A DNA stretch of 64,000 bases from an uncultured Bacteroidales bacterium. Its GTDB lineage: Bacteria > Bacteroidota > Bacteroidia > Bacteroidales > Muribaculaceae. Below the pieces are notes generated by a model. It saw only the letters and a list, made by a program, of their open reading frames with translations, was not told the origin of the DNA and searched no databases. The stretch lies in NCBI GenBank assembly GCA_902793405.1, contig CADBDH010000009.1, forward strand, positions 18,780 to 82,779. Direction: 5' to 3'. The number at the start of each line of letters is the position of its first letter. Position 1 is the stretch's first letter. The position numbers and the translations under genes were made by a program. Below, piece after piece: positions 40,910 to 62,037 of the stretch.

Positions 40910-40946
40910 CTGTGCAGATAGACTGCACAGTTTCATTATATATTTG
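40910..40946 (+). promoter_or_regulatory. Island operator S1 and promoter of the ASCH gene
   Basis: CTGTGCAG-ATAGA-CTGCACAG (40910-40930) is a perfect inverted repeat. Eight bp downstream is the -7 box TATATTTG (40939-40946). There is no TTTG at -33; the operator occupies that position. This is the best copy of the five-copy family S1-S5. Confidence 0.82.
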
Positions 40947-40987
40947 CGGTGCATAATCAAAATATTAACCGAATAAAAGCTATAACT

Positions 40988-41767
40988 ATGAAAGTATTAT
41001 CAGTACAGCAGCCGTGGGCTTCACTCATCGTGGCAGGAATCAAAGACGTGGAGAACCGCACCTGGAAACCTAAGGAAATGCCTGGACGTATACTCGTCCA
41101 CGCCAGTAAAAAGTGCTCCATACTCACTATGGGCAAAGAGCCTGTTGAGTGGGTGCAGGAGATCTTGAACGAAATCACCTTTGGCAATCTACCCGATTTC
41201 CCCGAAATGCCTGATGGCGCTATCATCGGCTACGTGACCGTCGATAGTGTAGACAAGGACAATGCAAGCAGTATTTGGGCGGCTGGTGAGAGTAATGACG
41301 AACGCCTCTACTACTGGCACCTCAAGGATGCTTTCATCTTTGACGAGCCCATCACTGGCGTGAAGGGCAAACTCCACCTCTGGGACTATGATTTAGACGA
41401 GAATAACCTGCCGGCAACCCATCAAGTAAAGTTGGTAGGCGTTGAGGTCGAAGATGACCATGTGTTCATTCCTGTCATCAAGGACATTTGGGACAAGCTT
41501 CAACCTAACGGATCGTTTGCTATTGAACTAGGTAGCCCTGCCGTGGAGCTGTGTTTGCCTGATGTCTATGACTTGAAGCCATTAAAGACCATTACCTTCA
41601 TCCACGATGGTCAGCAGCGCTCCTTCGCTCTCAGACCTGAGACCGAATGGAAATACTACACAGACGGCAGTGAGGACCAGAATCCCGCCATGTACTTGTC
41701 CTTGCTCAATCCCGAAGATGCCGCGCGCAATATTGCCTATTTCATTTGGGGAGAGGAACTCAAATAA
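40988..41767 (+). CDS. ASCH-domain protein
   Basis: A 259-residue protein whose first 130 or so residues form an ASCH domain (PUA-like fold). It starts with the typical VLSVQQPWASLIVAGIKDVE and NRTW segment, and later has GRILVHASKK, IIGYVTVDSV and the WHLKDA strand. ASCH domains bind RNA or modified nucleosides, and some are amidohydrolases of N4-acetylcytidine; which applies here is unknown. The C-terminal half (about 140-259) is not recognised. The ATG at 40988 gives the usual ASCH start. It is the first gene of the defence island and is controlled by operator S1. Confidence 0.83.
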   Translation: MKVLSVQQPWASLIVAGIKDVENRTWKPKEMPGRILVHASKKCSILTMGKEPVEWVQEILNEITFGNLPDFPEMPDGAIIGYVTVDSVDKDNASSIWAAGESNDERLYYWHLKDAFIFDEPITGVKGKLHLWDYDLDENNLPATHQVKLVGVEVEDDHVFIPVIKDIWDKLQPNGSFAIELGSPAVELCLPDVYDLKPLKTITFIHDGQQRSFALRPETEWKYYTDGSEDQNPAMYLSLLNPEDAARNIAYFIWGEELK

Positions 41768-41838
41768 AAACTTGCCACACCACATCGATAGATAAAGGCC
41801 AACCTTTATCACTATTTCTTCTTAATTTCACAGTGATT

Positions 41839-41870
41839 GTTGGCATTTTCGAAAATTATTAGTATTTTTG
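41839..41870 (+). promoter_or_regulatory. Promoter of the WYL regulator gene
   Basis: GTTG (41839-41842), 20 bp and TATTTTTG (41863-41870) fit the consensus with one mismatch. Unlike promoters S1-S5 it has a -33 element and lacks the 21-bp operator, so the regulator gene does not seem to control itself through it. Confidence 0.6.
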
Positions 41871-41908
41871 TGAGTCAGAATAAACCTTGATATAAACTCA
41901 GTCATCCG

Positions 41909-42946
41909 ATGCCAGTTAACAAGAATGCCTACATACGTTACCGCGCGCTTGACCGCTGTTTTCGCAACAGGCAGCGACGCTTCTTTATGGACGATCTGAT
42001 TGATGCCTGTACCGAAGCCTTGGTTGCAGCCAACTTTGACGGTGGCGTAGGCCGTCGTCAGATATTCAATGACATCCTCTTTATGGAGAGCGTTGATGGA
42101 TTCGACGTTGAGATAGAACGCTTGCGCGAAGGCAAGAAAGTATATTACCGTTATAAGGATCCCGACACAAGCATCAACCAGCAGCCCATCTCCAAGGCTG
42201 AGGCTCAACAGTTGCAGCAAGCCATTAGCACGCTGACCCGCTTCCGTGGCCTTCCGCAGTATGAATGGATTGAGGAAGTCATCACCAACCTTGAACACCG
42301 CTTTGACCTCGAGGGCAAGAGCGTGGGCGTTGTATGCTTTGAGCAGAACCGCGAGCTAAAAGGGTTGGAATATCTGGGTCCGCTTATCGACGCAGCCACC
42401 GAGCACAAGGTTCTCAAAATCAACTACCATAACTACAAGCGTGGTGGGCGTGATATGGAGTTCATTTTTCACCCCTATCACCTCAAGCAATACAATAACC
42501 GATGGTTCGCTTTCGGGCGCAATGATGCTACAGGTCAGATTCTGAACCTGGCTCTCGACCGGATAGAAGGTACTGAGCCCTGTGACGAAATTGAGTTCAT
42601 CGTTAACACCGAGATTGATTTTGATCATCACTTCGATAACGTTATCGGCGTTACTATCCCCAACGACCCGGAGGTTAAGCGTGTCGTGTTCCGCACCACG
42701 CCAGAGCGTTACCCCTACATCTGGTCCAAGCCGCTCCATCCCTCACAACGCATTGTGGACCGCAAGCAGTGCATGTTGAGTATTGATGTCGCCCCCAACC
42801 CCGAACTGGAGCAAAAATTGTTGTCCTTCGGGCCCGACATCGAGGTGCTGGAGCCAGAGCATTTACGGGAGCAGATCAAGAAAAAAGTTGAAGATTCTTA
42901 CAATAAATATTTTTCTGTGCACAAAGGTCGCACAGATGGGGAGTAA
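41909..42946 (+). CDS. WYL-domain transcriptional regulator
   Basis: A 345-residue regulator. Residues about 1-70 form a winged helix-turn-helix of the type common in Bacteroidota WYL proteins (MPVNKNAYIRYRALDRCFRN). The WYL domain spans about 155-235, with LKQYNNRWFAFGRND carrying the W-F/Y motif and NLALDRIEG carrying the conserved Arg, and a C-terminal extension follows (about 240-335). WYL regulators such as BrxR and CapW control phage-defence loci and bind inverted repeats. The five S1-S5 operators around it are its likely targets. Operator S2 lies inside the last codons of this gene. Confidence 0.88.
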   Translation: MPVNKNAYIRYRALDRCFRNRQRRFFMDDLIDACTEALVAANFDGGVGRRQIFNDILFMESVDGFDVEIERLREGKKVYYRYKDPDTSINQQPISKAEAQQLQQAISTLTRFRGLPQYEWIEEVITNLEHRFDLEGKSVGVVCFEQNRELKGLEYLGPLIDAATEHKVLKINYHNYKRGGRDMEFIFHPYHLKQYNNRWFAFGRNDATGQILNLALDRIEGTEPCDEIEFIVNTEIDFDHHFDNVIGVTIPNDPEVKRVVFRTTPERYPYIWSKPLHPSQRIVDRKQCMLSIDVAPNPELEQKLLSFGPDIEVLEPEHLREQIKKKVEDSYNKYFSVHKGRTDGE

Positions 42947-42951
42947 ATTTG
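42915..42951 (+). promoter_or_regulatory. Island operator S2 and promoter of hsdM
   Basis: CTGTGCAC-AAAGG-TCGCACAG (42915-42935) has perfect 6-bp outer arms. The -7 box TAAATTTG (42944-42951) follows after 8 bp. It lies within the 3' end of the WYL gene and drives the hsdMSR operon. Confidence 0.75.
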
Positions 42952-42986
42952 CAAGAGAACAATAACAAAGTAACTATAATTAGATT

Positions 42987-45041
42987 ATGCCAAACAATCA
43001 GAACACCCAACGCGAGCAAGAACTTGCCAACATCATCTGGGACATCAAGGAGATTATCCGCAACCTCTATGATGACGCCGAGGTCGAGGACGTTATTCTG
43101 CCCTTTACCCTCCTGCGCCGTTTGGACTGCGTACTCGACTCACATCGCGAGGCTATCATGGCCGCTATCCAGGATGTGCCTGATGTGCAGAAGAAGTACA
43201 AACTTAAAGCCGAGATGAGAAAGCACAACCTCACGTTCTTCAACACTTCTGGGCTTTCGCTGGAGCGGCTGCTTGGTGCTCCAGAGCAGATCGGTCAGTC
43301 CTTTGAGACCTATCTCAATGGATTTACCGACAACGTGAAGGATATTCTCGCCAACTTCGTTCACAGCGATACCGATAGCGAGATTGTTGACTTGACACCC
43401 ATCTACTCTCGTCTGGAGCGCGGTAACAAGCTGTTCTCGGTCATCCAGTTGTTTGTACAGCGTGCCGACCTGCACCCCGATGTGGTGACTAACGCCATGA
43501 TGGGAACGGTGTTTGAGATTGTCATCCGTCGTTCTAAGGAAGCCAGCAACACCAAGGCTGGTCAGTTCTATACCCCTCGCGAGATTGTTCGCTTGCTCAC
43601 TTCACTCACCCTGTGTGGCCAGGAGAGCAAGCTCTATGAATACGGCAAGCATTTTACCGTCTATGATCCTTGTTGTGGAACTGGAGGAATGCTCACAGTA
43701 TGCAAAGAATACCTGCAAGAACTTTCTGGTCGTCCTGACATGAAAGTCTATCTTTATGGCCAGGAACTCAACGAGAAGACCTATGCCATCTGCAAGAGCG
43801 ACTTGCTGATGAAGGGTGATGACCAGAACCTTGACGAGCAGTTATACCAAGGTGACACTCTTGGCAACGACCGCCTGATTGGCAAAACCTTTGACTTCAT
43901 GCTTGCCAATCCCCCCTTCGGTGTGGATTGGGGAAAGGACGAGAATGTAAAGAAGCGTGTTCAGGACGACAATTGCCCCGGAGGTCGTTTTGAGGCTGGT
44001 CTGCCCAGTACCAACGACGGCTCATTGCTCTTCCTCCAGCATATGATTAGCAAGATGGATGCTGGCGGGTCACGCATCGGCATCGTCCTTAACGGTTCAC
44101 CGTTGTTTAACGGTGATGCGGGCAGTGGTTGGAGTAACATCCGTAAGATGCTGCTCGACCGCAACCTGCTTGACTGCATTGTTGCTTTGCCCAAAAGCCT
44201 GTTTTACGGAGCCGACATTCTTACGTACTTATGGATATTAGACAATAAACGTCCTGATGAGCGTCGAAACAAAGTACTCTTTATTGATGCAGCTCACAAA
44301 GAGTATCTCAATCTACTTCAAAAGAACCTGGGTAGAAAACGCTACGAGGTGAGCGAAGAAGGCTCTGCTGACATCCTTGAAATCTATCGGGACTATCAAT
44401 CTTGCTCACGTGACATCCGCAACGAAAAAACAGGCGAGGTCGAGCATCTTGAAATCGCCAAGTTGCTTGACTACGACGACTTCCGATATACTACTGTTGC
44501 CACTCGTCGCCCCCTGCGTGTCAAGGCTCAGGTTACCAACTACCGTATAGCCACTTGCATCAACGATAAGAAGTACAAGGACTGCCAGGATTGGTTGTCT
44601 CGCTTGTTTGAGGAAACCGATGGCAAGGAATACACCAATTTCAATGCTTTTATTGAGGATGCAAAAGCAGCATCCAAAAAACATGGCTACAAGTGGAGTA
44701 AAACCTACTATGACGCGCTGTTGAAATATTTTACCGAAGTTTGTCCCGAAGCCGACATCGTGCGTGATGGCAAGGGAAACCCTGTGGCAGATAGTGCCCT
44801 TAACGATACCGAAAAGATTCCCGCCAAGCAGGACATTGACGAGTACTTCGAGCGCGAGGTGCTGCCTTATGCCCCCGATGCCTGGATGGACCGTTCCAAG
44901 GACAAGTTGGGCGTGGAGTTCCCCTTCACCCGCCTATTCTATGTCTATCGTCCCCTTCGTAGCAGTGAGGACATTCTCAAGGAACTCGCTGCACTCGATG
45001 CCCAGATGGACAAGGAAATTGCAGAACTCTCAATCGACTAA
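42987..45041 (+). CDS. hsdM: Type I restriction-modification, DNA methyltransferase subunit
   Basis: This 684-residue subunit methylates adenine in the recognition site and, with HsdS, forms the methylase core. It has the helical HsdM N-domain (about residues 12-130), AGQFYTPREIVRLL (about 191), the SAM motif YDPCCGTGGML (about 225) and the catalytic NPPFG (about 307). The C-terminal part (about 470-684) is long. All catalytic motifs are intact. First gene of hsdM-hsdS-hsdR, with a 3-bp gap to hsdS, under operator S2. Confidence 0.95.
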   Translation: MPNNQNTQREQELANIIWDIKEIIRNLYDDAEVEDVILPFTLLRRLDCVLDSHREAIMAAIQDVPDVQKKYKLKAEMRKHNLTFFNTSGLSLERLLGAPEQIGQSFETYLNGFTDNVKDILANFVHSDTDSEIVDLTPIYSRLERGNKLFSVIQLFVQRADLHPDVVTNAMMGTVFEIVIRRSKEASNTKAGQFYTPREIVRLLTSLTLCGQESKLYEYGKHFTVYDPCCGTGGMLTVCKEYLQELSGRPDMKVYLYGQELNEKTYAICKSDLLMKGDDQNLDEQLYQGDTLGNDRLIGKTFDFMLANPPFGVDWGKDENVKKRVQDDNCPGGRFEAGLPSTNDGSLLFLQHMISKMDAGGSRIGIVLNGSPLFNGDAGSGWSNIRKMLLDRNLLDCIVALPKSLFYGADILTYLWILDNKRPDERRNKVLFIDAAHKEYLNLLQKNLGRKRYEVSEEGSADILEIYRDYQSCSRDIRNEKTGEVEHLEIAKLLDYDDFRYTTVATRRPLRVKAQVTNYRIATCINDKKYKDCQDWLSRLFEETDGKEYTNFNAFIEDAKAASKKHGYKWSKTYYDALLKYFTEVCPEADIVRDGKGNPVADSALNDTEKIPAKQDIDEYFEREVLPYAPDAWMDRSKDKLGVEFPFTRLFYVYRPLRSSEDILKELAALDAQMDKEIAELSID

Positions 45042-45044
45042 GCA

Positions 45045-46397
45045 ATGAAACGATACGATTCATATAAGGACAGTGGCGTTAAGTGGATAGGTGAAATACC
45101 AAGTCACTGGAAAGAGTATAGATTGAAGTATCTGCTTTCTCGTTCAGCTGCAGGTGTCTGGGGCGATGATGAAAAAGAAGACGAAAACGACATTGTTTGT
45201 TTTCGTATTGCCGATTTTGATTATGGCCATGGCTTTCTTAAATTTGATAATATAACGTATCGCAATATACAAAAGGGTCAACTTGAAGGACGCCTGCTTT
45301 CAATGGGAGATTTGCTCATTGAGAAATCAGGTGGAGGCGATACAAGTCCAGTTGGTAGAGTAGTCCGCTTCAATTATGATGGTATAGCGACTTGCTCTAA
45401 CTTTATTCATTCTATATCTGTTAAGGAAACGTCGTCAAGTAATTTCCTGTATTATTTTTTCTACTCATTATATGCGAATAAAGAAAACTTGCTATATTTT
45501 AATCAAACTACTGGTATTCAAAACTTAAAAGTTGGAGAATATCTTTCTCAATCAATCTTTTTGCCTGAGTTAGGAGAACAGAAGGCGATTGCAGAGTGGC
45601 TTGATGTGAAATGTGGGGAGATTGACAAATTGATAGCGACGCAGCAGCGGCGCATTGAGTTGTTGCAGGAGCTGAGGCAAAGCATCATCACACGTGCTGT
45701 CACCCGAGGCATTAATCCCGATGCCCCCCTACGTGACTCAGGCATCGACTGGATTGGCCAAATTCCTTCTCATTGGGAAATATCAAAAATGAATTATGTG
45801 TGTGATGTAATTACTGACTATGTTGCAAGTGGTAGTTTCGCCGATTTAAAAGTAAATGTGACATATTTAGATGAGCCAGATTATGCGATGCTTGTAAGAA
45901 CAGCAGATTTATCTCAAAAGAATAAAGATGTAGCAAAGGTATATGTCTCAAAACAATCATATGACTTTTTATCAAATTCAAATTTATTTGGAGGTGAGAT
46001 TATATTGCCCAATATCGGTGCGTCAATAGGTGACGTTTACATGGTTCCAATTGACCTCTATGACAAAATGACTTTGGCACCAAACTCAATTATGGTTAAA
46101 ACAAAATGGTGCGATCTGTTTTATTTCTATTATTTTAAAAGTGTTTGTGGTAGAAAGTCATTAGAGCTTATTGGTCAAGCTGCTGCACAAGGGAAGTTCA
46201 ATAAGACTGAACTAAGGCAGCTAAGACTTCCTCTTCCTCCTCTTTCTGAGCAGCGAGAAATCGTTGCCTATATTGAGAAAGAGACAACTAAGGTGGATCA
46301 TGCGCTACAGCAAGCTGAGCGTCAGATTGAACTGCTGCAAGAGTTGCGTCAAAGTGTCATTACCGAAGTGGTGACAGGAAAGCGCAAAGTATGTTGA
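45045..46397 (+). CDS. hsdS: Type I restriction-modification, specificity subunit
   Basis: This 450-residue subunit reads the DNA target through two target recognition domains (about residues 10-185 and 230-410). They are separated by two coiled-coil conserved regions with the same sequence plan, RRIELLQELRQSIIT and RQIELLQELRQSVIT. Each half opens with a similar motif, GVKWIGEIPSHWK and GIDWIGQIPSHWE. The recognition domains are A+T-richer than hsdM and hsdR, as expected for exchanged modules. No inverted hsdS fragment or recombinase is seen in the window. Confidence 0.93.
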   Translation: MKRYDSYKDSGVKWIGEIPSHWKEYRLKYLLSRSAAGVWGDDEKEDENDIVCFRIADFDYGHGFLKFDNITYRNIQKGQLEGRLLSMGDLLIEKSGGGDTSPVGRVVRFNYDGIATCSNFIHSISVKETSSSNFLYYFFYSLYANKENLLYFNQTTGIQNLKVGEYLSQSIFLPELGEQKAIAEWLDVKCGEIDKLIATQQRRIELLQELRQSIITRAVTRGINPDAPLRDSGIDWIGQIPSHWEISKMNYVCDVITDYVASGSFADLKVNVTYLDEPDYAMLVRTADLSQKNKDVAKVYVSKQSYDFLSNSNLFGGEIILPNIGASIGDVYMVPIDLYDKMTLAPNSIMVKTKWCDLFYFYYFKSVCGRKSLELIGQAAAQGKFNKTELRQLRLPLPPLSEQREIVAYIEKETTKVDHALQQAERQIELLQELRQSVITEVVTGKRKVC

Positions 46398-46420: not shown

Positions 46421-49400
46421 ATGAATAATCCATTGAACGAGAAGAGATTTGAGGAACACATTGCCGAGTGCTTGGCACAAGGTGATCTGTATAATCAGCG
46501 CACTAGTGCACAGTTTAACATAGAGAAACTGTGCGACGTGGAGATGCTGGAACGCTTCTTGCGGGCCCAGAACAAAACGTGGATACAACTCGCGCACGCC
46601 TTCCCGGGTAAGGAGGTAGAAACCGTCATCAACGAGTATAACAAGAAGCTCAATCGTGGCGATAGCATCCTCACCATGCTCCTAAAGGGACTTACTATCA
46701 AGGGAATCAAGGTGAAACTCGTGCAGTTCAAGCCCGTACTTGATGGTCCCGAGAGTGATCCATACAAGCTTTATCGCAAGAATTGCTTCAGCGTCGTGCG
46801 GCAGATGCATTACAGCACAGCTGCAACTACTTATGGCAGCAAACAAGAAAACCTTGCCGAACTTGACTTGTGCATCCTTATCAACGGCATTCCCTTGCTC
46901 ACATGCGAACTCAAGAACGAGGGCACAGGCCAGAACTACGGCCACGGAATCTATCAGTACCGTTATGAGCGCAATCCAGAGAACCGAATGCTCAGGAACT
47001 GCCTCGTTCATTTCGTGATGGATAACAACTTTGTGTTCATGACAACGAAACTCGATGGCGAGAACACGCGTTTCCTGCCCTTTAACCGCGAGAGCGTGAA
47101 CCCGCCCATCGATGGCGAATATGCCACGGCCTACATGTGGCGTCCTGTTGAGGGAGAGCCCGAGAGCAATATCCTGGGTGCCGACTCGCTGCTTGACATC
47201 ATCGAGAACTTCTTCAAGCGCGCGAATGACGAGAAAAATAAACCGGTGGTGTACTTCCCCCGTTTCCATCAGCTGCGAGCTGTTCGTAAACTGCGCCGTA
47301 TGGTGCGTGAGGATGGTCCCGGGCACAACTACCTGATCCAGCACAGTGCGGGTTCGGGCAAAACCAAGTCAATGGCATGGCTGGCACATCAGCTGGCCAA
47401 CATGACCAATGCCGACAAGACACCCATCTTTGACAGCATCATCATGGTCACCGATCGCATTGTGCTCAACCGCAACATGGCAGACGATGTGGTGAACTTC
47501 CAGACCGTGGCAGGAACGGTCAAGGACATTCGCCGTGGCTCAAAGAACCTGGCCACTGCCTTGAACGAGGGACACCGCATCATCATCTCGACGGTGCAGA
47601 AGTTTGCTTTTGCCCTCAAGGACTTGAAGCGTGAACAGCATCGCAAGTATGCCATCATCGTTGACGAGGCGCATACCGCCATCGGTAACGAGAGCGCTAA
47701 GGATCTGGTCAACGCCCTCTCGACCGACGATGACCTGAAAGCAATTGAAGGCTTCAATCCCGAAGATTATGATAGTGACATGGATGCTCTCATGGCCTAT
47801 ATGCAGGTCATGCGGCGCATGATGAAACATATAAGCTACTTTGCATTTACCGCAACGCCAAAGGACAAGACCTACGCTCTATTTGGCAACAACGAAGGTA
47901 AAGCTCATGACCTGTACTCGATGAAGCAGGCCATTGACGAGAAATTCATCCTCGATGTGCTGCAGAACATCAAGAGCTATGTCACGATGTTTGAGTATAT
48001 CGAGAAGAACGAAGGAGCGGACAAGGACAAGTTGTTCGAGGAGAAAAAATCTCTTCGTGTCATCTATGACGAACTGAATAAGAACATGTACATCAAGTTG
48101 CGCAAGGCAACGATGATGCTTGACCACTTCATGCACCACAGCATCAACAAGATCGGTAAGAAGGCCAAGGCCATGGTCGTGACCGACTCACGCCAGGCAG
48201 CTGCTGACTACAAGCAACTGCTCGACCGCCTGATAGCTGACCAGTATGATGGACAGATCAAGACGCTGGTGGCCTTCTCGGGTGAGGTAGAGGACAGCCA
48301 TGGGCGCCGTTGCAGCGAGTCGAGCTTGAACGATGACCACGTCAAGGACGATGACATCCGCATCAAGTTCATGGAGGATGACTATAAGATTCTTGTGGTT
48401 GCCGAGAAATTCCAGACGGGCTTCGACCAGCCGCTGCTGCACACGATGTATGTCGACCGCTCATTGGGCGGCATCCAGTGTATCCAGACGCTGTCTCGCT
48501 TGAACCGCTGCTACCCGGGCAAGGAAGATACAATGGTGATTGACTTCCGCAACGATGTGGATAAAATCCAGAAGTCGTTCCAGCAGTATTATACAGAAAC
48601 CACGCTGGTGGGCGAGGTGGATACTCAGCGCCTCTACTCGCTTAAGGGTGACGTTGAAGTTTTCAACCTCTTTAACGATGATGAGGTTAACGCTGTTGCC
48701 GAAGGTATGGTCAACCCTGACAAGGTGCAGAATGTGCCAGCCATCTTAAAGCACATCGTTGAAGAACGTGTAAATCCCCTAGAGGATGATGTCAAGGACA
48801 GGTACCGTAAGCTAGTCAACCGCTATATTCGTCAATATGGCTTCATGGCCCAGCTGATGGACTTCACCGATCCTGACCTTGAGAAGTTCTATGTGTTCTG
48901 CAAGATCTTTTACAAGTATCTGCCTTATACCAAGGAGACCCTGCCCATGGAAATCCTGGAGCTCATCGACTTGAATAAGCTCCGCATTCAGATGAGCTAT
49001 GAGGGGCAGCTCGAACTCGAAGACGAGGAACAATTGCTCAAGAGCAGCCGTATCGGCGATGTTGGCCAGAAACAAGAAGAAGACAAACTCAGTATTAAGG
49101 AGATTCTCGACATTGTGAACAGCCCATGGGAGCAGTTCCTTGACGAGAACGACAAGATATTGAAGCAGATTTGGGAAGAGCTGCTCGTTGATCCTGAAAT
49201 CAACGATGCCTTTAATGCCAACAATACGTTTGACGTGATGATCAACCTAGTCAAGGAGAAGTTTGACGAGAAGATTGCCACCCAAATCGAGAAATACTAC
49301 AACTTCGCCGAAGTACTGGAGCGCGAACAAAGCCTCTCGCTCACCCTTATCGCCAAATTTGTTGAGGCCCTGTCTAGCCGTACTGCCAGGACAGCTCACA

Positions 49401-53200: not shown

Positions 53201-53381
53201 TTGCAAGGTTATGATTGAGTCAGCAATGTGTGCAGCAGAAAACACTTGTAACGTAGACAACCATATCGATCTATTCAAGTCGAGAGATCACGCAAGCATA
53301 GTCAATTTCTATAGAAAGTATTTCAAAGAGACATATAGCGAAATATTCTTTAGGACAATTAAAATCATCAACACCAAATAG
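50214..53381 (+). CDS. Large protein of a Druantia type III-like module (DruH candidate)
   Basis: A 1055-residue protein with no domain that I can name. The N-terminal 230 residues look helical (KRRGLDECPLPLWQLKLSQ, YNYGMEAALCYAEWWRRDF). The middle (about 240-800) is rich in beta strands with repeated short motifs and few catalytic-type residues, and the end is helical again. It resembles the STY4851/ECs_5259 (YjiT-like) group that lies next to DUF1998 helicases. In Druantia type III the only two genes are druH, of this size class, and druE. The stop lies 10 bp before the helicase gene, so they form one operon. DruH identity is inferred from position and size. Confidence 0.6.
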   Translation: MTELEQILKRRGLDECPLPLWQLKLSQEEYESLKETLRAHPCDLYNYGMEAALCYAEWWRRDFRGNVPSKEDVAYGIGLDRYYAEDLFKAAKSALIRRHCRFIRTFHGTQYFRTLLNQGGLPINYIKNNDSNLGSYPRFLKGLVRELSTINYDWSNEDNSIIQQLNCVSYLAKSFKNENIYDVSMQIAHAIIANDTDLLPYDDTDASLVELTESLQQEYDRAKHERRFRPLSLHWKLSTTDDGRGVLSVNMDVVKDISSDSIPGINTTTCYSFDIFVAGTLVGKYVRKIIKSDDEGNIINTVYYTRVSVGMNKDILWKGEPVVEVKVRCDNDERIFLTIAGCYPPNFEFPQVFQMLDEHLYSRTETANSENNIAIFSDVWQIDGAKSINIAGHALSCIEFSKDIELVNGETNETIRIDNEFTPYIAEFSGNYIPWVEESNYKLLNRIPIIKVYDKEKNLVAKCKTKYKVRGTDSWYRLNSSCVLRPGLVDIKVEFPDGKSIIETFYSIGELSFGSCNEEAFTTEITCSSPGEMRPEIEKLETADIENLENGHWRISRRPDSNVCPSTCTFRLYNQGNPVLRISVAIPFDGILITDVDGNIVPDGKIISFANLTHFFVTNHGRNRTIDVTYYQSNQEDEPDFKRLSSRVIDGLVSLADYSDLIMRMFNLYGVNSFDRSSSVVISISGQQVFIRKFVLESTISDGSIVVNDYTEDDTVDFKYDGSLYAFPVGETLPSEEFFPIKLERDPDKENTFNFPEDFEHKEVVVFSSEEDRRRVIPKYFHRDQYDFDKRTRSGRTANLIDRWYDILSDEPIYNGKHWLDLCIAYDICSQHNLPFTTYDGLKAVSKEPKLLANFIIAMWLNEYKDVLAQDINRFEQEMVIALHWIPAKTWNEAINHLMDNIPTQLQAFFLERMPDLMELLQDIFNSTVSTEIAEDFKNYITGGVKLEDSRRFSHSDLNNFRMRVHGLNDINQDLPTIDIHVNRAKYYAKQEMPPYCKVMIESAMCAAENTCNVDNHIDLFKSRDHASIVNFYRKYFKETYSEIFFRTIKIINTK

Positions 53382-53391: not shown

Positions 53392-56300
53392 ATGAATTAC
53401 AAAGATTTCTATACGACGGCCCAAAAGAGGCTTGTTGACTCGATGGTTTCCATGTGGTTCAAGGGAAAGCCAAAAGAGCAAGAGTACTTGCGCTACCTTT
53501 TAACCGAAGAGGAACCATTGATAGCAGAACCCGTATTCCAATCGATCTTTCCATGGGAAGAAAGCAGAGAAACCTTTGGCGAGCATTCGTCTAAGTTGGG
53601 AATCTTAAAACCAGAATTTGTTGAAGCCCTCAGTAGCGACCGAGTTGAAAAGGAATATAGATTCCCAATAGATCGCCATCCTTACAAGCACCAGACAAAG
53701 AGCTGGAAAACGATGCTTTCAGATAAGGGGAAAACCATTGTTGTTACTTCGGGCACTGGTTCAGGTAAAACTGAATGTTTCATGATTCCTGTTTTACAAG
53801 ATATTGCACAACGTAACGAAAAGAACTGCGTTCAGGCAATTTTCCTTTACCCGTTGAACGCACTGATGAAAAGCCAGCAAAAGCGTATTCATGCTTGGTG
53901 CAATGCTCTCCCTGAAAAGGTGACCTATGCCATATACAACGGTAACACAGAGAAATCATCAAAGCCACAGACATATACCCAACCGAAATATCCCCAACTG
54001 GTAACACGTCCTCAAATTCGTCAAACTCCACCACAAATTTTGTTTACGAATCCAACGATGCTCAACTATATGTTGGTGAGATCTGAAGACCGTGCAATTC
54101 TCGAGCAATCTAAAGGAAAGCTGAAATGGATTCTGCTTGATGAAGCTCACACCTACACAGGTTCATCAGCTGCAGAATTAGCACTTCAACTGAGACGAGT
54201 GCTTGACGCCTTCGGCGTGACCATCGACCAGGTGAATTTTGCTGTAACCTCAGCAACTATTGGTGATGAGAAAGATCCTGCCACTGAGTTGAAGCTCAAG
54301 ACATTCGTTTCACAATTAACCGGCAAAGCAGCTGACAGCATTGTCGTTATCGGTGGTAAACGCATCGTGCCTGAGATGGATGAGAGCCTAGCTAAAGAGG
54401 CTATTTCAAGAGTCAATGACCGCTTTGGCACCAAGATTACCCTCCCCGACATCGAACGTTTAAGAAAAAAACTCAATTCAAGTCCGGTTTTGTCAACAAA
54501 AGACATTGTTAAGTCTATAAACAGCGCTATTAGCAATGATACTGTCAAATCACTTGAAGTCATTGATGCCCTGGCCGATAAAGTCGAGGGTCTGAATAGA
54601 GCTGATGGAAAACCCGCAGCTCTGCTTCCTTGCAGGGCCCATTTCTTTATCCGATCAATTAGTGGTGTGTATGCTTGTGTCAATCCAGAATGCTCTAGAC
54701 ACAAAGAATCCCGAATCAGTATCGGTAATTTGACCACTTACCAAAACACCGACTGCCCTGTTTGCAAGTCACGAATGCTTGAGTTAGCTACATGCCCGTC
54801 ATGCGGTGGAGCCATTGTTGTTGGAGAGAGCAGCACAATAAGTGGGTTTAGGATGAAGGTTAATACCGTTGATCTTGATAAAAGTTTGTTCTATGAGACT
54901 ACTGATGAAGAATTAATTGACACAGAAGAAGAAACCGGAGGAAACGCGTCTATTCGCGAGGATGAGGGCTTTACTCCTTTTTATTATGCAAAGCCCGAAA
55001 AACGTTGTTTGCGTCATCACACGTCCGAAACAGGTCACGTCTTTAACCATGAGAATTGCAAAATTGAACAAGCTTCTGATGATACCGATAGCATAAATGT
55101 TTTCAAGTCATTGAGACATAGCGACACCAATGCGGATTTATGTCCTCACTGCGGCAATAGGATTACCAATATTAATTACTTGAGAGCAAGTGCAACTCAA
55201 ATGGGCCGCGTACTTTCTACTCTGATTCTTGATCACGCAGAAGGTGTAGATACAAATGATGCAGAAGTACTCTATGACGGTAAGAAATACATCACTTTTA
55301 CTGATAACCGTCAAGGTTCTGCACGCTCGGCTATGGGTATGAACCAAGACGTGGAACGAGCATGGATTCGTGCATCCGTGTTCCATAAACTTGCTGACCT
55401 TCGTCTTGATAACATGCCAACCGTGGGACTAAATGAAGCAGAAGAACAACTTTACAGTTACCTTAAACTACAGCCAATAACCTCAATGCCACCTATGGTG
55501 AAAAAGCAATTAGAGGAGTTGGAGGCAAAGAAAAACGGGACAGCAACAGTGCCACCTCCTGGTGAGATCGAATGGAATGCCATTAGTCAGAAATTGGAAA
55601 ACAATTCCGACTTCAGAAAACTGTTCAGACACTTGAGCAATGCCCGGGACGGCATTAGATTTGAAAATGCCAATACTTATCTTAAAGCCCTAATTGTGGA
55701 TCAGTTTGGTTGGATTCCGAAACGCGCCAATTCATTAGAGAACATGGGTATTGTGCGTCTTGTATATCCAGCATTAAGAGCAGCGATATGCCCGCAGTTG
55801 CTGAGGAGTAATGGGTGCGATAATAAAGACTGGCAAGATTTCTTGAAAATCTGCTTGGACTACTTTATTCGTGGTGGTCGCCATTATATGATTTCTGGTG
55901 ATTACCAGGATTATCTCACACAGAACACATATACATCTGAGATATACCCAAGCGATTCGACACTTCGTAAAAACAATAAACCAGTGAGTCGTTGGCCGTC
56001 AGTGAAACGCACACCCAATTCTGTCCAAGAGGAGCAATCCAGATTGGTCCTCTTGCTATGCGCGGTTTTGGGCTATGACGACGTCGATAGTTTTGACGAA
56101 GAGAAGATCGCCAACGTCAACGACCTTTTAAGAAATGCTTGGAATTTCATCACATCAAACATTCTTGACCCAGTTGATACAGAACATAAAGGCTATAAGC
56201 TTGACCTTTTAGGAAATAAGGTAAAGCTGCAGCTCATTGAGAAGGGTTATCTGTGTCCCGTCGACAATGTAATTACAGATGTTACATTCCGAGGCTACAG

Positions 56301-59300
56301 CCCCCGCATGAACGGCTATTTAGGAAAAGCTAATTTTGACAGGTTCAAGATAACCAAAGAATTTGACTATCCATTATATCCCTTCAGGTCTGACGAGCCA
56401 TCTGAGAAAAAGATTATGGATTGGATTGACCAAAACATGTCTGAACAAAGGAATGCAGGCGTGTTCTCTGACATCAATGAGCGAATCTACATTCAGAAAC
56501 CTATATTCATTTCCGCCGAACATTCAGCTCAACAATCTAGAGAGGATCTTGAGAAATATGAAAAAGAGTTCAATGATGGCCAGCTAAATGTTCTCTCGTG
56601 CTCTACTACGATGGAAATGGGTGTTGACATCGGTGGCATTAGTGAAGTCGTCATGAATAATGTGCCGCCTAAATCTTCCAACTACTTGCAAAGGGCTGGC
56701 CGCGCTGGTCGCCGTAACGAATCTAAAGCAATGGCACTTACATTCTGTGCCCCAAATCCTATCGGATCTTACACCTGGAAGCATCCAGATTATCCTATAA
56801 CCCATCTTACAGAGACTCCTTTACTCAAGCTTGAAAGCCGACAACTCATACAACGTCATGTCAATGCGCTCATCTTTGCTGATTTTGTTTCTTTACAAGG
56901 AGGGAATATACGTGTTACAGCACAGTTGAATGACTTCTTCATTGCTCATGACACATTATCATATTATGACCAATTTTTGAATCATATTGACCTTATCATC
57001 AGCGGGAAAAGACAGGTTTTGGAAAAAACATACCAGAAGCTAGTTAACGGAACAGGCATGGGTGTCTTTTCTTTGAGAGATGCAGCCATGGCAACCAAGA
57101 AAGATATATCAACTGTGTATAACGGCTTCATGATCAATGTTGAGAACTTTGACAAAGCAAAAAGGACAGCTGATAACCAAGATGGTGGTGGCTCTGCTGC
57201 AAGGGCAATAGAAATTCAGAAAACGGCTTTCTTAGAAAAATCTCTACTGAGCTACTTGGCTGAGCAATCATTCTTACCAAGTGCAGGCATTCCTACTGGG
57301 CTAGTTGAATGTATGCTCAAGTCAGATGACCGTAATTATAAAGAATATCCAACGATGCATTTAAGCCAAGCAATTTCGTCTTATGCACCAGGTAGTCAGG
57401 TCGTAAAGAATGAATGGATTTACGAGCCTGAAGGAATCCGCCTTAAAACCCGATATGAAGAGAGCACATCCAGGTATATCATTCAGAATTGTTCTAATTG
57501 CGGCTACACTACAATTAGCTATGGCTCAGCCAAAAATGATTGCCCAAAGTGTAATGGACAGAGTACAATGCATGGTATTTACAATATTAGCAGCAATAGC
57601 GATGGACGTTTTACCGAGGTTGTTGAGCCTGCTGCTTTTACTGTAGCATGGGGAGCAAAACCTACTCGAAAAATGAAGGGTAGCGGTGCATTGGATTTCA
57701 TTCAGCCGGTATTACTCGAAATGGAGCCATGGGGAGAGAAAACATCGTCTGCAAAGATTACAGTTCGTTGTTCTACGCCTCAGTCTGAGATTCTATTCTA
57801 CAATCGTGGACGAAGTGGATTCGGGTTTGCATTCTGCCCAATTTGTGGCAGAATGGAATCTGAGAGATCCATTACCGACAATGAAAATGTCTTGTCCAAT
57901 CACAAGCATTTGACAAACGGCACTCAGTGTACAGGCGTGAACAATATTAGAAGGCATGTGCTTTTAGTTGGCCGATACCAAACAGACTTTGTTGAGATCA
58001 AGTTTTATAATAAAGACGATTTACTAATTACTAATCAAGAAACACTGTATTCGCTTGGTGTGATTCTCAGTCGGAAATTGACTGAATTATTAGGCGTCAA
58101 TGATGGAGAAATTGACTTTGGTTATAATAGTACGAGCCACTCGATCTTTATCTATGATACTGCACTGGGGGGAGCAGGATATTCAACTCTTTTCAGGGAG
58201 TATAAAGATAAGGTAATTGAATTGGCTTATAAGACTCTCAATGGTTGTGATTGCGAACGAGCTTGTACCAAATGCTTAATAGATCGTCGGTCACAATGGT
58301 ATCTTAATTATCTGAATAGGAAGAAAGCCCTTGAGTGGATTGAATTGGAAATGAAGTCACGCATCGCTCCAAAATCAATTACTACTGCTGTGCCAAATGC
58401 TACAGCAGTAACATCCGATTTCTCGACTGAGTTTTTCCAACTCTCCCGCAATCGCGATATCAAGGCTGTCAAATTGTTCATTGATAGCGACTTCTCATCA
58501 TGGAGTATCGATGATTTCCCCTTTATCAGGCAGATTGAAGAGATGAAACTGGCTGGCGTTAATGTGTCATTTGTCATAGACGATAACATCAACATGAAAG
58601 ACTGTCCGCCTTCAATAAAGACGATTGTTGTGTCTGCTATCCTAAAGCATAAATTTGAATATTGCACCAGCAAACTTCGTGGTTCACTGACTCCATTGCT
58701 ACATGTGGCATACGTTAACGACAGTGTCCGAACATACTTTGGAGAGAATATTAATCGGTCATTGGCAAACACATGGGGCAATGGCGACATCTATTCGACA
58801 GGAAACGATATGAATTTGTTATTCAATTCAATCGATTCTGTCCAACTACTGCAAAGTCTTGCCGAAGGTGAGTCCTCTTTCACATTTGATACTCGAATAA
58901 AAGAAGATTGTAACCTCAGTAACATATGCACTGCATTATTTAGGAACCATGACGAGCAATGGAGCAAAATCAAGGAAGCATTCAATGGTAAACAAGTGTC
59001 GGTTAGATATTCTGACAGGTTCCTTGTAACTCCACTTGGATGTCTACTTCTTGCACATATGATTTCGAAGATTAAAACAGAACTCAACATCAATGTCGCG
59101 TCACTTAATATATACGCAAAAAGGCCATCAACAGAAAGCTCATCAAATTTTGCATTATATCTTGACGAGAATTATCGAAATACTTTAGATCGTAACGATT
59201 TCTTGCAATCATGCATGAGAGAATTGGTTGGGTTTAATCCGAGTATTACTGACTCTGGCTATTTTGAACACGAACGGTGTCTTACTATTAAGTCTGGTGA

Positions 59301-59484
59301 TGAAGAACTATCTATCAGACCAGATGGTGGTATTGCTTATGGTTGGAAACCATTCAGACGAGAAGCGTCAGAGTTAACTCAAGAGGATTTCGAATACAAC
59401 TGGGATTTAGACATAAGATTGTACAACCAAAAGAAAGACTACTCTGGCATACTATATACGATCTCTTTCAACAAGAACGAATAG
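53392..59484 (+). CDS. DUF1998 DEAD/DEAH-box helicase, DruE-like
   Basis: This 2030-residue helicase matches the architecture of DruE, the shared component of Druantia anti-phage systems. The superfamily 2 motor has Walker A VTSGTGSGKTECF (about residue 120), the DEAH box LLDEAHTYTGSS (about 248), TSATIGD (about 285), EMGVDIGG and QRAGRAGRR (about 1100). Cys pairs inserted in the motor (CVNPEC, CPVC, CPSCGG at about 425-471; CPHCGN at 583) and later (CSNCGY, CPKCNG at about 1367-1390) suggest zinc ribbons. The DUF1998 region carries LGGAGYS and the cluster CDCERACTKCL (about 1618-1628). The last 380 residues are not recognised. Frame intact. Confidence 0.82.
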   Translation: MNYKDFYTTAQKRLVDSMVSMWFKGKPKEQEYLRYLLTEEEPLIAEPVFQSIFPWEESRETFGEHSSKLGILKPEFVEALSSDRVEKEYRFPIDRHPYKHQTKSWKTMLSDKGKTIVVTSGTGSGKTECFMIPVLQDIAQRNEKNCVQAIFLYPLNALMKSQQKRIHAWCNALPEKVTYAIYNGNTEKSSKPQTYTQPKYPQLVTRPQIRQTPPQILFTNPTMLNYMLVRSEDRAILEQSKGKLKWILLDEAHTYTGSSAAELALQLRRVLDAFGVTIDQVNFAVTSATIGDEKDPATELKLKTFVSQLTGKAADSIVVIGGKRIVPEMDESLAKEAISRVNDRFGTKITLPDIERLRKKLNSSPVLSTKDIVKSINSAISNDTVKSLEVIDALADKVEGLNRADGKPAALLPCRAHFFIRSISGVYACVNPECSRHKESRISIGNLTTYQNTDCPVCKSRMLELATCPSCGGAIVVGESSTISGFRMKVNTVDLDKSLFYETTDEELIDTEEETGGNASIREDEGFTPFYYAKPEKRCLRHHTSETGHVFNHENCKIEQASDDTDSINVFKSLRHSDTNADLCPHCGNRITNINYLRASATQMGRVLSTLILDHAEGVDTNDAEVLYDGKKYITFTDNRQGSARSAMGMNQDVERAWIRASVFHKLADLRLDNMPTVGLNEAEEQLYSYLKLQPITSMPPMVKKQLEELEAKKNGTATVPPPGEIEWNAISQKLENNSDFRKLFRHLSNARDGIRFENANTYLKALIVDQFGWIPKRANSLENMGIVRLVYPALRAAICPQLLRSNGCDNKDWQDFLKICLDYFIRGGRHYMISGDYQDYLTQNTYTSEIYPSDSTLRKNNKPVSRWPSVKRTPNSVQEEQSRLVLLLCAVLGYDDVDSFDEEKIANVNDLLRNAWNFITSNILDPVDTEHKGYKLDLLGNKVKLQLIEKGYLCPVDNVITDVTFRGYSPRMNGYLGKANFDRFKITKEFDYPLYPFRSDEPSEKKIMDWIDQNMSEQRNAGVFSDINERIYIQKPIFISAEHSAQQSREDLEKYEKEFNDGQLNVLSCSTTMEMGVDIGGISEVVMNNVPPKSSNYLQRAGRAGRRNESKAMALTFCAPNPIGSYTWKHPDYPITHLTETPLLKLESRQLIQRHVNALIFADFVSLQGGNIRVTAQLNDFFIAHDTLSYYDQFLNHIDLIISGKRQVLEKTYQKLVNGTGMGVFSLRDAAMATKKDISTVYNGFMINVENFDKAKRTADNQDGGGSAARAIEIQKTAFLEKSLLSYLAEQSFLPSAGIPTGLVECMLKSDDRNYKEYPTMHLSQAISSYAPGSQVVKNEWIYEPEGIRLKTRYEESTSRYIIQNCSNCGYTTISYGSAKNDCPKCNGQSTMHGIYNISSNSDGRFTEVVEPAAFTVAWGAKPTRKMKGSGALDFIQPVLLEMEPWGEKTSSAKITVRCSTPQSEILFYNRGRSGFGFAFCPICGRMESERSITDNENVLSNHKHLTNGTQCTGVNNIRRHVLLVGRYQTDFVEIKFYNKDDLLITNQETLYSLGVILSRKLTELLGVNDGEIDFGYNSTSHSIFIYDTALGGAGYSTLFREYKDKVIELAYKTLNGCDCERACTKCLIDRRSQWYLNYLNRKKALEWIELEMKSRIAPKSITTAVPNATAVTSDFSTEFFQLSRNRDIKAVKLFIDSDFSSWSIDDFPFIRQIEEMKLAGVNVSFVIDDNINMKDCPPSIKTIVVSAILKHKFEYCTSKLRGSLTPLLHVAYVNDSVRTYFGENINRSLANTWGNGDIYSTGNDMNLLFNSIDSVQLLQSLAEGESSFTFDTRIKEDCNLSNICTALFRNHDEQWSKIKEAFNGKQVSVRYSDRFLVTPLGCLLLAHMISKIKTELNINVASLNIYAKRPSTESSSNFALYLDENYRNTLDRNDFLQSCMRELVGFNPSITDSGYFEHERCLTIKSGDEELSIRPDGGIAYGWKPFRREASELTQEDFEYNWDLDIRLYNQKKDYSGILYTISFNKNE

Positions 59485-59554: not shown

Positions 59555-59591
59555 CTGTGCAGATCCCGTGCATACTTGAGTTTTAACTTTG
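59555..59591 (+). promoter_or_regulatory. Island operator S3 and promoter
   Basis: CTGTGCAG-ATCCC-GTGCATAC (59555-59575) keeps the left half exactly, while the right half is degraded. The -7 box TAACTTTG (59584-59591) follows after 8 bp. It precedes the broken gene at 59648. Confidence 0.65.
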
Positions 59592-59647
59592 CGCCGTCGT
59601 TAGTTGAGAACGGCAATAGCATTGATAAACCAATAATCAGACTAACT

Positions 59648-60219
59648 ATGCCTAGAACAAAGCCAAATATCTCATCGGAGAGTATCTTCACTTTGACCTT
59701 GCTGCCCTCGCATATTCAGCGCTTGAGGGACAGAGAGGTTTCTCATTCGAGGGGCAGGAGGCTATCGACTTCCATGCGAAAACTCGTGGTGAGCCAGATT
59801 ATGATGAGAATGGAAATGTGCAGCCAATCCACTTCAACATGGAGGGTTATGTGGCATTCTTGACCCATAACGAGGACCACCACGATGATGTTGAGTTCCA
59901 GTCGCCGTTCAGCAATGTTACCAAGATCAGCACAGTAGGAGTAGACCCATATCGCTGTGAGATGCTGTTCAAGCACGATCCAGACCGCAATATGTCATTG
60001 TACTTTAGACATGAGCTGCTGCCCGAACCCACTGAGGGTATGCCAGTGATGGGCGTATGTGGATGCAGGGCCGCATCAATGAGTTCCAAGAATAAACACA
60101 TTTGTGGAAATAATTTCTCCAACTGTGCAGATAGACTTCACAGTTGTGTATTTACTTTGCATCATCAACGTGAGGGAACGTGTCTTCACTTGATGAAGTT
60201 GTGTAATACGAATCATTAA
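59648..60219 (+). pseudogene. Frameshifted unknown gene behind operator S3
   Basis: An ATG at 59648 (MPRTKP) is 56 bp after the S3 promoter, but its frame soon becomes nonsense. Another frame, open from 59656, gives protein-like sequence (GEYLHFDLAALAYSALEGQ, HFNMEGYVAFLTHNEDHHDD, YRCEMLFKHDPDRNMSLYF) without a usable start before 59818. A one-base shift just after the ATG would join them. The end of the open frame runs into operator S4, so the true C-terminus is probably lost or lies before about 60120. Family not recognised. Confidence 0.5.
60123..60159 (+). promoter_or_regulatory. Island operator S4 and promoter of the DUF2130 gene
   Basis: CTGTGCAG-ATAGA-CTTCACAG (60123-60143) differs from S1 at a single base, even sharing the spacer. 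The -7 box is TTACTTTG (60152-60159), again 8 bp away. The start codon follows at 60232. Confidence 0.75.
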
Positions 60220-60231
60220 AACAGATTAATT

Positions 60232-61554
60232 ATGAAGGAGTTAAAGTGTCCCAATTGTGGAAGTGTATTTAGTGTAGATGAGGCCGACTATGCAGCAATC
60301 GTCAGTCAAGTGAAAAGCACCGAGTTCCAGCAAGAACTTGAACGCCGCGTCGCCGAACTGCACGAGAAGCATCAAGCCGAGCTAGAGAACAACGAACTGA
60401 AGGCAAAGCAGGACTATGAACGCCGGTTGGGAGCAAAGGATGCTGAGATTGTTCGCCTGACTGGACAAGTAAGCAGCGCCGTACAAGCCGAACAACTGAA
60501 GTACAACAAGGAATTGGCCCAGCGTGATACCGTCATTGAACAACTCAAGGCTCAGGCTGAGCAGCAGGAGCAAAAGGTGCAGGTAGCAATCCTCCAAGAG
60601 CAGAACAAGGCTAAGGATGCGATTCAGACTAAGGACGCCCAAATTGCCGAGCTCAAGAACAAGATTGAGACAGAAAAGAATGCTGCTATCCAACGCGAGC
60701 AGAGCCAAAAGGAGCGCTATGAACTGGAGTTGAAACAAAAACAGGATCAGGTCGATTACTACAAGGACCTGAAGACTCGTCTGTCAACCAAGATGGTGGG
60801 TGAGACCCTTGAAGCTCACTGTAGCACCGAGTTTAACCGTTTGAGACCGATGTTCCCCAACGCTTATTTCGAAAAGGACAACGACGCCTCGGGCGGAAGT
60901 AAAGGTGACTTCATCTTCCGTGACTCTGAAGACGGCTTTGAGTATGTGTCCATTATGTTCGAAATGAAAAACGAAATGGATACCACCGCGACCAAGCACA
61001 AAAACGAAGACTTCTTGGCTAAACTCGATAAGGACCGTAACGAGAAGAACTGCGAGTATGCCGTGCTGGTTACCCTCTTGGAACCGGACAATGAGCTCTA
61101 TAACGGCGGTATCGTGGATGTGTCATACAAATATCCCAAAATGTACGTTATCCGTCCGCAGTTTTTCATTCCGCTGATTACAATCCTTGTGCAGACGTCC
61201 CAAAAGAGCGTTGATTTGAAACGTCAGCTCGCTATAGCCCAAAACCAGTCCGTGGATGTGACCAACTTCGAAAACAAGCTCCTCGAATTTAAGGACAAGT
61301 TCGGAGCTCACTACGCAAGAGCATCTAAGAAGTTCGAGGATGCAATCAAGCAGATTGACGACACCATAACTAAACTGCAAAAGGTAAGAGAGAATCTTGT
61401 CGGCTCAGAGAATTATCTTCGTCTAGCCAACCAAGACACCGACAACCTCACCATCAAGAGACTCACTCGTGGTAATCCCACAATGAAGAAGAAGTTTGAA
61501 GAAGCCCGCGAGGCATCGGCAAACCGTGAGACAAGCCCAGAGAATAACGACTAA
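60232..61554 (+). CDS. DUF2130 protein with nuclease-like core
   Basis: A 440-residue protein of the DUF2130 family. It starts with a half zinc-ribbon (LKCPNCGSVFSVDEADYAAI), followed by a long coiled coil rich in Gln, Glu and Lys (about residues 25-185). The conserved core (about 190-330) contains GDFIFRDSEDGFEYVSIMFE and MKNE; the Asp and the E-x-K in FEMKNE look like a PD-(D/E)xK site. A second helical segment closes the protein (about 345-430). Biochemical function is unknown; nuclease activity is inferred. Controlled by operator S4, it is part of the island regulon. Confidence 0.82.
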   Translation: MKELKCPNCGSVFSVDEADYAAIVSQVKSTEFQQELERRVAELHEKHQAELENNELKAKQDYERRLGAKDAEIVRLTGQVSSAVQAEQLKYNKELAQRDTVIEQLKAQAEQQEQKVQVAILQEQNKAKDAIQTKDAQIAELKNKIETEKNAAIQREQSQKERYELELKQKQDQVDYYKDLKTRLSTKMVGETLEAHCSTEFNRLRPMFPNAYFEKDNDASGGSKGDFIFRDSEDGFEYVSIMFEMKNEMDTTATKHKNEDFLAKLDKDRNEKNCEYAVLVTLLEPDNELYNGGIVDVSYKYPKMYVIRPQFFIPLITILVQTSQKSVDLKRQLAIAQNQSVDVTNFENKLLEFKDKFGAHYARASKKFEDAIKQIDDTITKLQKVRENLVGSENYLRLANQDTDNLTIKRLTRGNPTMKKKFEEAREASANRETSPENND

Positions 61555-61588
61555 ACCTTGACTTGATGTAGGGTTGAGCATGGATAGA

Positions 61589-61676
61589 AATGTGGGTGTA
61601 TGGTCGCAGACCGGAAGCGAGCAGTAACCGTTAGCAAGGCGCTGAGGTCGAAGGCTCAAATCCTTCCACCCACATT
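61589..61676 (+). ncRNA. Candidate structured RNA with tRNA-like T-arm
   Basis: AATGTGGGTG (61589-61598) pairs perfectly with CACCCACATT (61667-61676). Next to the 3' arm is a 5-bp hairpin GAAGG (61650-61654) with CCTTC (61662-61666), enclosing the 7-nt loop CTCAAAT, close to a tRNA T-loop. The interior also pairs: GACC with GGTC (61609-61612, 61646-61649) and AGCG with CGCT (61616-61619, 61640-61643). No normal D-arm or anticodon arm can be drawn, so it is not a standard tRNA. Confidence 0.4.
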
Positions 61677-61708
61677 CCACAATGTAACTATCAATGAAAG
61701 AATGTGAA

Positions 61709-61968
61709 ATGGAAGAAAGAAAAGTATGAGTCGCTATTGTTCTCATCTATGATGGGCTGTAAAACCAGGCGGTTTTATCGTTGAAAATAACTGGTGCATA
61801 TGGCACAAATTCTTATACGCTAGTCAACGAGTTAGACAAGAAATGGTGGTCCCAATCCCAATCCTTTCTCCTAGCTTAAAGGGCAAGATTCGTGAACCTG
61901 TTTGGATTCCAATGAATGAGTCTACCAAGTTACAGATAGTAGATGAAGATAGTATTATATCCGTGTGA
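61709..61968 (+). pseudogene. Broken copy of the small gene at 62924
   Basis: Read with one internal stop and one frameshift, this stretch matches the 84-residue protein encoded at 62924-63178. The frame opens ATG and encodes MEERKV, then TGA where the intact copy has an Arg codon, then VAIVLIYD, a frame change near 61756, and WAVKPGGFIVENNWCIWHKF through YASQRVRQEM to KLQIVDEDSIISV and a stop at 61966. The intact copy reads KVRVAICLIY, YKAVTPGLFIVDMSW, YASQRVRQEM and KLQIINENDIIRL at the same places. Confidence 0.7.
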
Positions 61969-62000
61969 AAGAGCATGGTTTTATTTACTTATTTCTTTTA

Positions 62001-62037
62001 GTGTGCAGAAAGGGTTCATAATTGGGGGCTTTCTTTG
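62001..62037 (+). promoter_or_regulatory. Island operator S5 and promoter
   Basis: GTGTGCAG-AAAGG-GTTCATAA (62001-62021) keeps TGTGCAG but has a poor right half. The -7 box TTTCTTTG (62030-62037) is at the same 8-bp distance as in S1-S4. It precedes the gene at 62076. Confidence 0.55.

Follow-up and report, generated by a model that had tools for sequence, protein, structure and literature searches.

A WYL-domain protein and five operators at a preferred distance from the -7 box in a restriction and Druantia island of a Muribaculaceae genome: a candidate activator and its local regulon

The window analysed here is a stretch of 64,000 nucleotides from an uncultured Bacteroidales bacterium of the family Muribaculaceae (GenBank assembly GCA_902793405.1, contig CADBDH010000009.1, positions 18,780 to 82,779). 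It carries a defence island with five 21-bp operators (S1 to S5), each located 8 bp ahead of a box resembling TAnnTTTG, and with a gene for a WYL-domain protein (41909-42946), their predicted binder and a likely activator of the promoters that they mark. This layout had been described in an earlier note on this DNA, and reading out the sequence reproduced all five elements, the 8-bp distances and the boxes at the coordinates given below.

Unless stated otherwise, all features lie on the + strand. S1 (40910-40930) is a perfect inverted repeat, CTGTGCAG-N5-CTGCACAG, followed by the box TATATTTG (40939-40946; TAnnTTTG consensus) and, as the first gene behind it, an ASCH-domain gene (40988-41767; Pfam PF04266). 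S2 (42915-42935) lies inside the WYL gene, at the 3' end, and the stop codon of that gene is overlapped by the S2 box TAAATTTG (42944-42951). Behind S2 runs a 16.5-kb series of genes comprising hsdM (42987-45041; type I methyltransferase), hsdS (45045-46397; specificity subunit), hsdR (46421-50047; restriction subunit), druH (50214-53381) and the helicase gene druE (53392-59484). The series thus contains all three subunits of a type I restriction-modification system as well as both DruH and DruE of Druantia type III (PADLOC DruH3, 1195 bits; DruE3, 2747 bits), and the 166-bp gap ahead of druH could accommodate a separate promoter. S3 (59555-59575), with a degenerate right half, and its box TAACTTTG (59584-59591) precede a broken gene (59649-60093) whose frame from the ATG has stops, leaving open fragments only; the open piece 59818-60093 had no PADLOC or Pfam match. 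S4 (60123-60143), one mismatch from perfect, and its box TTACTTTG (60152-60159) precede a DUF2130 gene (60232-61554; Pfam PF09903); in L067 and L090, too, relatives of this gene follow an operator of this kind, giving three separate loci in all. S5 (62001-62021), the weakest operator, retains an intact TGTGCAG next to a degenerate right half; its box TTTCTTTG (62030-62037) is followed by a small gene of no known family (62076-62393), for which PADLOC, Pfam and NCBIfam gave no match. The genes previously assigned to the five sites were correct, the position of S2 and its box in the end of the WYL gene being an addition, and their grouping into a local regulon (ASCH gene, type I restriction and Druantia III, broken gene, DUF2130 gene and small gene) is supported. 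That the small transcripts are unlinked, as the earlier note suggested, is doubtful, since no other island is involved for the small genes and the gene behind S3 is a broken one.

The left half TGTGCA is identical in all five operators, as the earlier note had observed, whereas the right half varies: S1 has it intact, S4 deviates by one mismatch, and S2, S3 and S5 have weaker forms. The flanks of the sites are dissimilar (9-26 of 60 positions identical), which is not how copies of a single duplicated segment would look; segmental duplication as the origin of the equal spacing was rejected on these grounds. Between the 8-bp spacers, 1 to 6 of 8 positions are shared in pairwise comparison. The whole-genome scan that had been named as a check showed that the composite motif is not common: TGTGCA-N22-TNNNTTTG has six matches in the 3.19-Mb genome, five of them within these 21 kb (binomial, 7.5e-11), and the sixth (C1) carries a different repeat. 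The bare inverted repeat, with up to three mismatches, is only mildly enriched in the window (nine matches; shuffle mean 4.06; nine reached in 6 of 100 shuffles), and the signal resides in the repeat half plus the box at a fixed distance. Genome-wide, the same bare search returned 21 places, of which four are S1 to S4 and one is a site on contig C17, which makes it a poor detector of such sites.

The C17 site, CTGTGCAGATAGGGCGCACAG-N8-CAATTTTG, found by the inverted-repeat search, is a likely further member of the set in the same genome and lies about 18 kb from a WYL paralogue with 63% identity to the island protein. This paralogue belongs to a second island on C17, together with HsdM (81%), HsdS (42%), a RhuM-family protein and HsdR (88%), and another site, of the class termed A below, is located 171 bp ahead of its gene. 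The gene that follows the small S5 gene in the window (62511-62918) has an 89% identical copy as the second gene behind the C17 site.

The distance between operator and box was examined with a motif-blind procedure on 62 stretches (61 with a WYL gene and one continuation of contig C17), in which the distance to every T[AT]nnTTTG box was recorded for all inverted repeats of 21 bp whose arms paired at 7 or more of 8 positions. Thirty repeats were found at 8 bp, whereas the other 24 distances averaged 2.4. The control DNA, 298 kb in total (19 control stretches plus window positions 1-38000), contained no repeats at 8 bp, and one when the looser box nAnnTTTG was used; with the reversed box, no distance peak appeared in the motif-blind test. 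The spacing of the actinobacterial RecA-NDp motif is also 8 bp, a likeness that we do not use as evidence.

A reading of the five sites as chance occurrences, or as hitch-hiking copies without function, could appeal to the mild enrichment of the bare repeat in the window and to the degenerate S3 and S5. It has to contend, however, with the five of six genome-wide composite matches that fall within 21 kb, with the differing flanks and with the recurrence of the layout across the order; the spacing scans contradict a chance origin, which was rejected accordingly, and we find this explanation scarcely credible.

The repeats sort into classes by arm sequence, four of which we named (TGCA, TGAAG, GTTCA and CGCA). 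On the WYL tree, the operator class changes four times, compared with at least 15 times in 300 shuffles, in a comparison that uses the 42 of 65 WYL rows that could be labelled, four of the 42 having received their class A label manually and having been retrieved with the pattern of that class. Residues of the helix-turn-helix (HTH) region, in the presumed recognition helix, mostly shift with the class, for example with RQ in classes A and B (L066 being an exception) versus RTxQ in class D. For class D, a separate genome scan with the pattern CGCAnA..TnGCGnAG and 15 allowed distances gave 31 of 43 matches at 8 bp and four at 7 bp, and at least 20 of the 31 lie near a WYL gene. The 8-bp distance is therefore strongly preferred, not absolute.

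As a side observation, the class D loci, among them L103, L108, L119, L123 and L128, hold a sister clade of WYL proteins encoded beside rtcB. An rtcB-like gene is present in 13 of 17 class D loci, divergently oriented in 11 of the 13, and operators such as CTACGCAAAnnnnTTGCGCAG stand 8 bp ahead of a box ending in TTTG. In this family of bacteria, the sister clade is likely to serve as a WYL-based switch of RNA repair.

To follow the sites beyond this genome, we searched 297 family genomes for TGCAG-N5-CTGCA with TAnnTTTG behind it at any of 17 allowed distances. There were 16 matches, ten of them at 8 bp, and all ten lie within 3.6 kb of a homologue of the island WYL protein. An order-level scan of 393 genomes placed 12 of 26 matches at 8 bp, one being the window's own. 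DNA was fetched around the 11 others and around 19 matches at other distances (13 from the order, six from the family), up to 8 kb per side, the stretches stopping at contig ends and hence being shorter than 8 kb on one side in some cases; one match at another spacing that shares its locus with an 8-bp match (G610) was left out of the 19 controls. A WYL homologue lies within 8 kb of six of the 11 order-level sites at 8 bp versus none of the 19 sites at other distances; five of the six homologues, including one partial match, are no more than about 60 bp from the site, and the sixth is a weak match at 6.6 kb. Family and order combined, the counts are 16 of 21 versus 0 of 19 (Fisher, 3.4e-7). 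Some WYL gene is present in 294 of the 297 family genomes, and it is therefore nearness to the site, not mere presence, that counts. A scan of genome contigs with the WYL protein as query returned a single relative.

Around the remaining five of the 11 order-level sites, the DNA retrieved (up to 8 kb per side) contains no homologue of the WYL protein, which counts against a strict one-to-one link between site and WYL gene. Of the five genomes, the first carries, on a different contig, a WYL fragment with 133 matched residues; in a second, the sole homologue is located near the other site of that genome; a third has nothing beyond distant WYL-domain matches elsewhere; and the last two show no detectable homologue anywhere. 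The expectation that the site would be absent from relatives without the WYL gene was consequently not borne out. These sites, and above all the two in genomes without a detectable homologue, are what one would expect if a different factor, encoded elsewhere, bound the repeats and the WYL gene were a mere neighbour. Such a factor would leave unaccounted for the WYL genes near 16 of 21 sites at 8 bp and near none of the controls, as well as the operator class that tracks the WYL tree with four changes, and we judge it highly improbable. Because the four operator classes follow the WYL tree, the island WYL protein is, as predicted from sequence comparison, very probably the binder of S1 to S5. 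Of the earlier proposal that the protein encoded at 41909-42946 binds here, a probable pairing, backed by proximity and by the co-variation of operator class, therefore stands, and the five order-level sites without a nearby homologue do not fit it.

Two groups of relatives show further arrangements of the site. In L159, L160 and L161, representing three places in two genomes of one genus, a conserved TAATGCAGATACACTGCACTG-N8-TAnCTTTG is found, with a WYL gene 6.6 kb away at one place and none at the other two; perhaps this site is served by another regulator. In L056 (8717-8850) and L057 (6480-6616), two tandem operator-plus-box units about 100 bp apart lie between the WYL gene and a gene for an AAA_15 ATPase (an assignment that was Pfam-tested in L056 only), and a third unit stands just ahead of hsdM, with the box TAACTGTG in L057.

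Promoters of the Bacteroidota type have the consensus TAnnTTTG at -7 and TTTG at -33 (as cited in PMC7366714; this and the papers cited below are represented here by excerpts). The operators span bases 9-29 ahead of the box and thereby cover the -33 position. Across the family, TTG occurs 18-21 bp upstream of the box in none of 54 operator promoters versus 58 of 187 other promoters, the 54 being what was left of 69 sites, detected with a bias to class A and strong palindromes, after 15 were dropped by an arm-pattern filter and the need for enough upstream DNA. Other TAnnTTTG promoters in these loci display a clear -33 peak 20 bp ahead of the box. S5 is outside the set of 54, and its upstream region was read by eye. 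The earlier observation that the sites have an operator in place of the -33 TTTG is thus borne out.

The WYL protein itself has Pfam WYL and WCX domains above the cut-off, preceded by an N-terminal winged HTH region that is apparent in the alignment, in the predicted model and in the full-length fold matches. When compared with solved structures, the single sequence gave nothing in phmmer, whereas the family alignment profile matched DriD (7tzv, 9.6e-9) and PafBC (6sj9, 2.3e-8) and, more weakly, BrxR (7qfz, 2.1e-4; 7t8k, 0.31) and CapW (about 0.1). Foldseek with the predicted model (mean predicted local distance difference test score, pLDDT, 81.1; predicted template modelling score, pTM, 0.53, which is moderate) likewise ranked DriD first (3.4e-13), followed by PafBC (2.7e-12), above BrxR (1.8e-7) and CapW (9.7e-7). 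Profile and predicted structure therefore both place DriD and PafBC above BrxR and CapW.

DriD of Caulobacter is described as a homodimeric activator whose pseudo-palindromic site covers the -35 position and keeps one and the same distance to the -10 element; this site is given as 20 bp, the printed consensus ATACGAC-N7-GTCGTAT spanning 21, its promoters have poor -35 elements, and it acts on a divergently transcribed neighbour (PMC12340889). The island shares with it the wHTH-WYL-WCX protein, a palindromic operator of about 20-21 bp over the -35/-33 position, the constant distance to the -10/-7 element (apart from the few class D sites at 7 bp) and a poor or absent -35/-33 element (0 of 54 versus 58 of 187). 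The two proteins differ in that they share about 16% identity and in that the genes under DriD control are DNA-damage genes, transcribed with the housekeeping sigma factor of Caulobacter, whereas the targets here are restriction and Druantia genes behind promoters of the Bacteroidota TAnnTTTG type. SiwR, also a homodimer, has as its site an imperfect palindrome of 19 bp that lies between the -10 and -35 regions; it additionally needs the -26 region, and its authors regard a related mechanism as plausible (PMC10693628). PafBC makes contact with a -26 motif and places itself between the promoter and sigma domain 4, which usually contacts -35 (PMC11804915); unlike the island protein as we picture it, it is a heterodimer with a non-palindromic motif (PMC6789036). 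Both of these actinobacterial regulators also differ in their stress and DNA-damage targets.

BrxR and CapW, repressors of bacteriophage exclusion (BREX) and of cyclic-oligonucleotide-based anti-phage signalling (CBASS) systems, resemble the island protein as WYL regulators located in defence loci, and BrxR repeats have a 5-bp spacer as in S1 to S5. Acinetobacter BrxR is a proposed repressor whose repeat, with 5-nt spacing, lies over the -35 element of a promoter with canonical boxes (PMC9122589), and E. fergusonii BrxR has its main site (R-BOX1) downstream of -10 and a second, poorer site upstream of a promoter that it represses (PMC9122601). BrxR sites are thus on or downstream of promoters with recognisable -35 and -10 boxes, whereas the island operators do not sit on promoters that would be complete without the regulator, the -33 element being missing; in addition, sequence and fold matches to both repressors are weaker. 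RptR is likewise a single small regulator that acts locally, on a restriction island in which its operator site is repeated, but it is a repressor that uses direct repeats with the palindrome TAGCTA, and the abstract does not call it a WYL protein (PMC12255303).

Taken together, the preferred spacing, the missing -33 element and the closest kinship to DriD and PafBC favour an activator over a repressor of the BrxR/CapW type. We infer that the island WYL protein probably binds the 21-bp repeat as a dimer, in place of the -33 element and 8 bp upstream of the -7 box of what would be primary-sigma promoters, and activates them. Activation is most likely because these promoters have no -33 element: a near-exact distance combined with its absence is what an activator needs to hold RNA polymerase in a fixed pose, and, in the manner of DriD and PafBC, the bound protein would most likely dock the polymerase at a promoter that is weak by itself. 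The WYL domain probably senses a nucleic acid made in infection or DNA damage as its ligand; in activators of the DriD type, it is ssDNA bound by the WYL domain that switches activity. If hsdMSR-druHE forms one transcript, as we infer, five promoters would put the ASCH gene, this run, the now-broken gene, the DUF2130 gene and the small gene under one switch.

The same protein might instead repress from the same sites, blocking RNA polymerase at -33 until a phage-made ligand releases it. This was the analogy drawn in the earlier note, which named an activator last, and it has precedent in CapW, BrxR and sll7009, the described WYL regulators of anti-phage systems in the sources consulted, all of them repressors. 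The Acinetobacter BrxR site overlaps a -35 element, and some relatives have sites ahead of the WYL gene itself. For repression, however, an exact distance to the -7 box would be unnecessary, and yet the 8-bp spacing prevails in the different operator classes; the -33 element to be expected of a promoter once unblocked is absent here; the Acinetobacter promoter has canonical -35 and -10 boxes, and R-BOX1 of E. fergusonii lies downstream of -10. With structure and sequence placing activators first, the repressor analogy is not supported, the activator alternative fits geometry, promoter and structural ranking better, and we regard repression as unlikely.

Several observations nevertheless weigh against activation by the WYL protein through these sites. 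The BrxR sites over -35 and upstream of a repressed promoter mean that position alone does not prove activation, and the operator ahead of the WYL gene in some relatives and of the C17 paralogue would also suit autorepression. That the -33 element is missing follows in part from the operator sequence itself, which occupies its place. S3 and S5 are weak repeats, four class D sites have a distance of 7 bp (three of them near WYL genes), the model has a pTM of 0.53 and the template modelling (TM) scores of the full-length matches are below 0.5. To these are added the five order-level sites without a nearby homologue, including those in the two genomes that appear to have none.

In the excerpts cited here, described WYL regulators of anti-phage systems are repressors, and described WYL activators serve DNA damage or stress. 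Among the titles and abstract openings of the open-access literature that we searched, we found neither a WYL activator of restriction or Druantia nor the layout of operator, 8 bp and TAnnTTTG. The proposed regulator belongs to a known protein family and would use an activation geometry that is also known, whereas the promoter type and the role would be new. If activation by the WYL protein is correct, restriction and Druantia would be under positive control, and the grammar of their promoters (operator, 8 bp, TAnnTTTG) could be recognised directly in genome sequence. The operator could then provide a handle for finding defence genes of unknown kind, one candidate being DUF2130 with its site in three separate loci, and the signal that switches on restriction systems in gut bacteria would become a directly testable question.

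The window contains some further features around these genes. Between the ASCH and WYL genes lies a hairpin with an 8-bp stem and a 4-nt loop (41791-41810; -9 kcal/mol, z -1.67), which 11 of 200 shuffles fold equally well and which is a possible weak terminator. It is followed by an operator-free, promoter-like site of the WYL gene, TTG-N20-TATTTTTG (41840-41870), with the usual -33/-7 spacing seen in other promoters of these loci. Behind the DUF2130 gene, positions 61585-61690 adopt a stable tRNA-like fold with a T-loop-like stretch (-34.8 kcal/mol, a value that none of 200 shuffles equalled); the fold has no ARAGORN or Rfam match, ARAGORN reporting no tRNA and Rfam one weak sub-threshold match elsewhere, behind the fold. 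Just past the island, at the end of the window, a gene for a SprT-like protein is encoded on the - strand (63595-63969).

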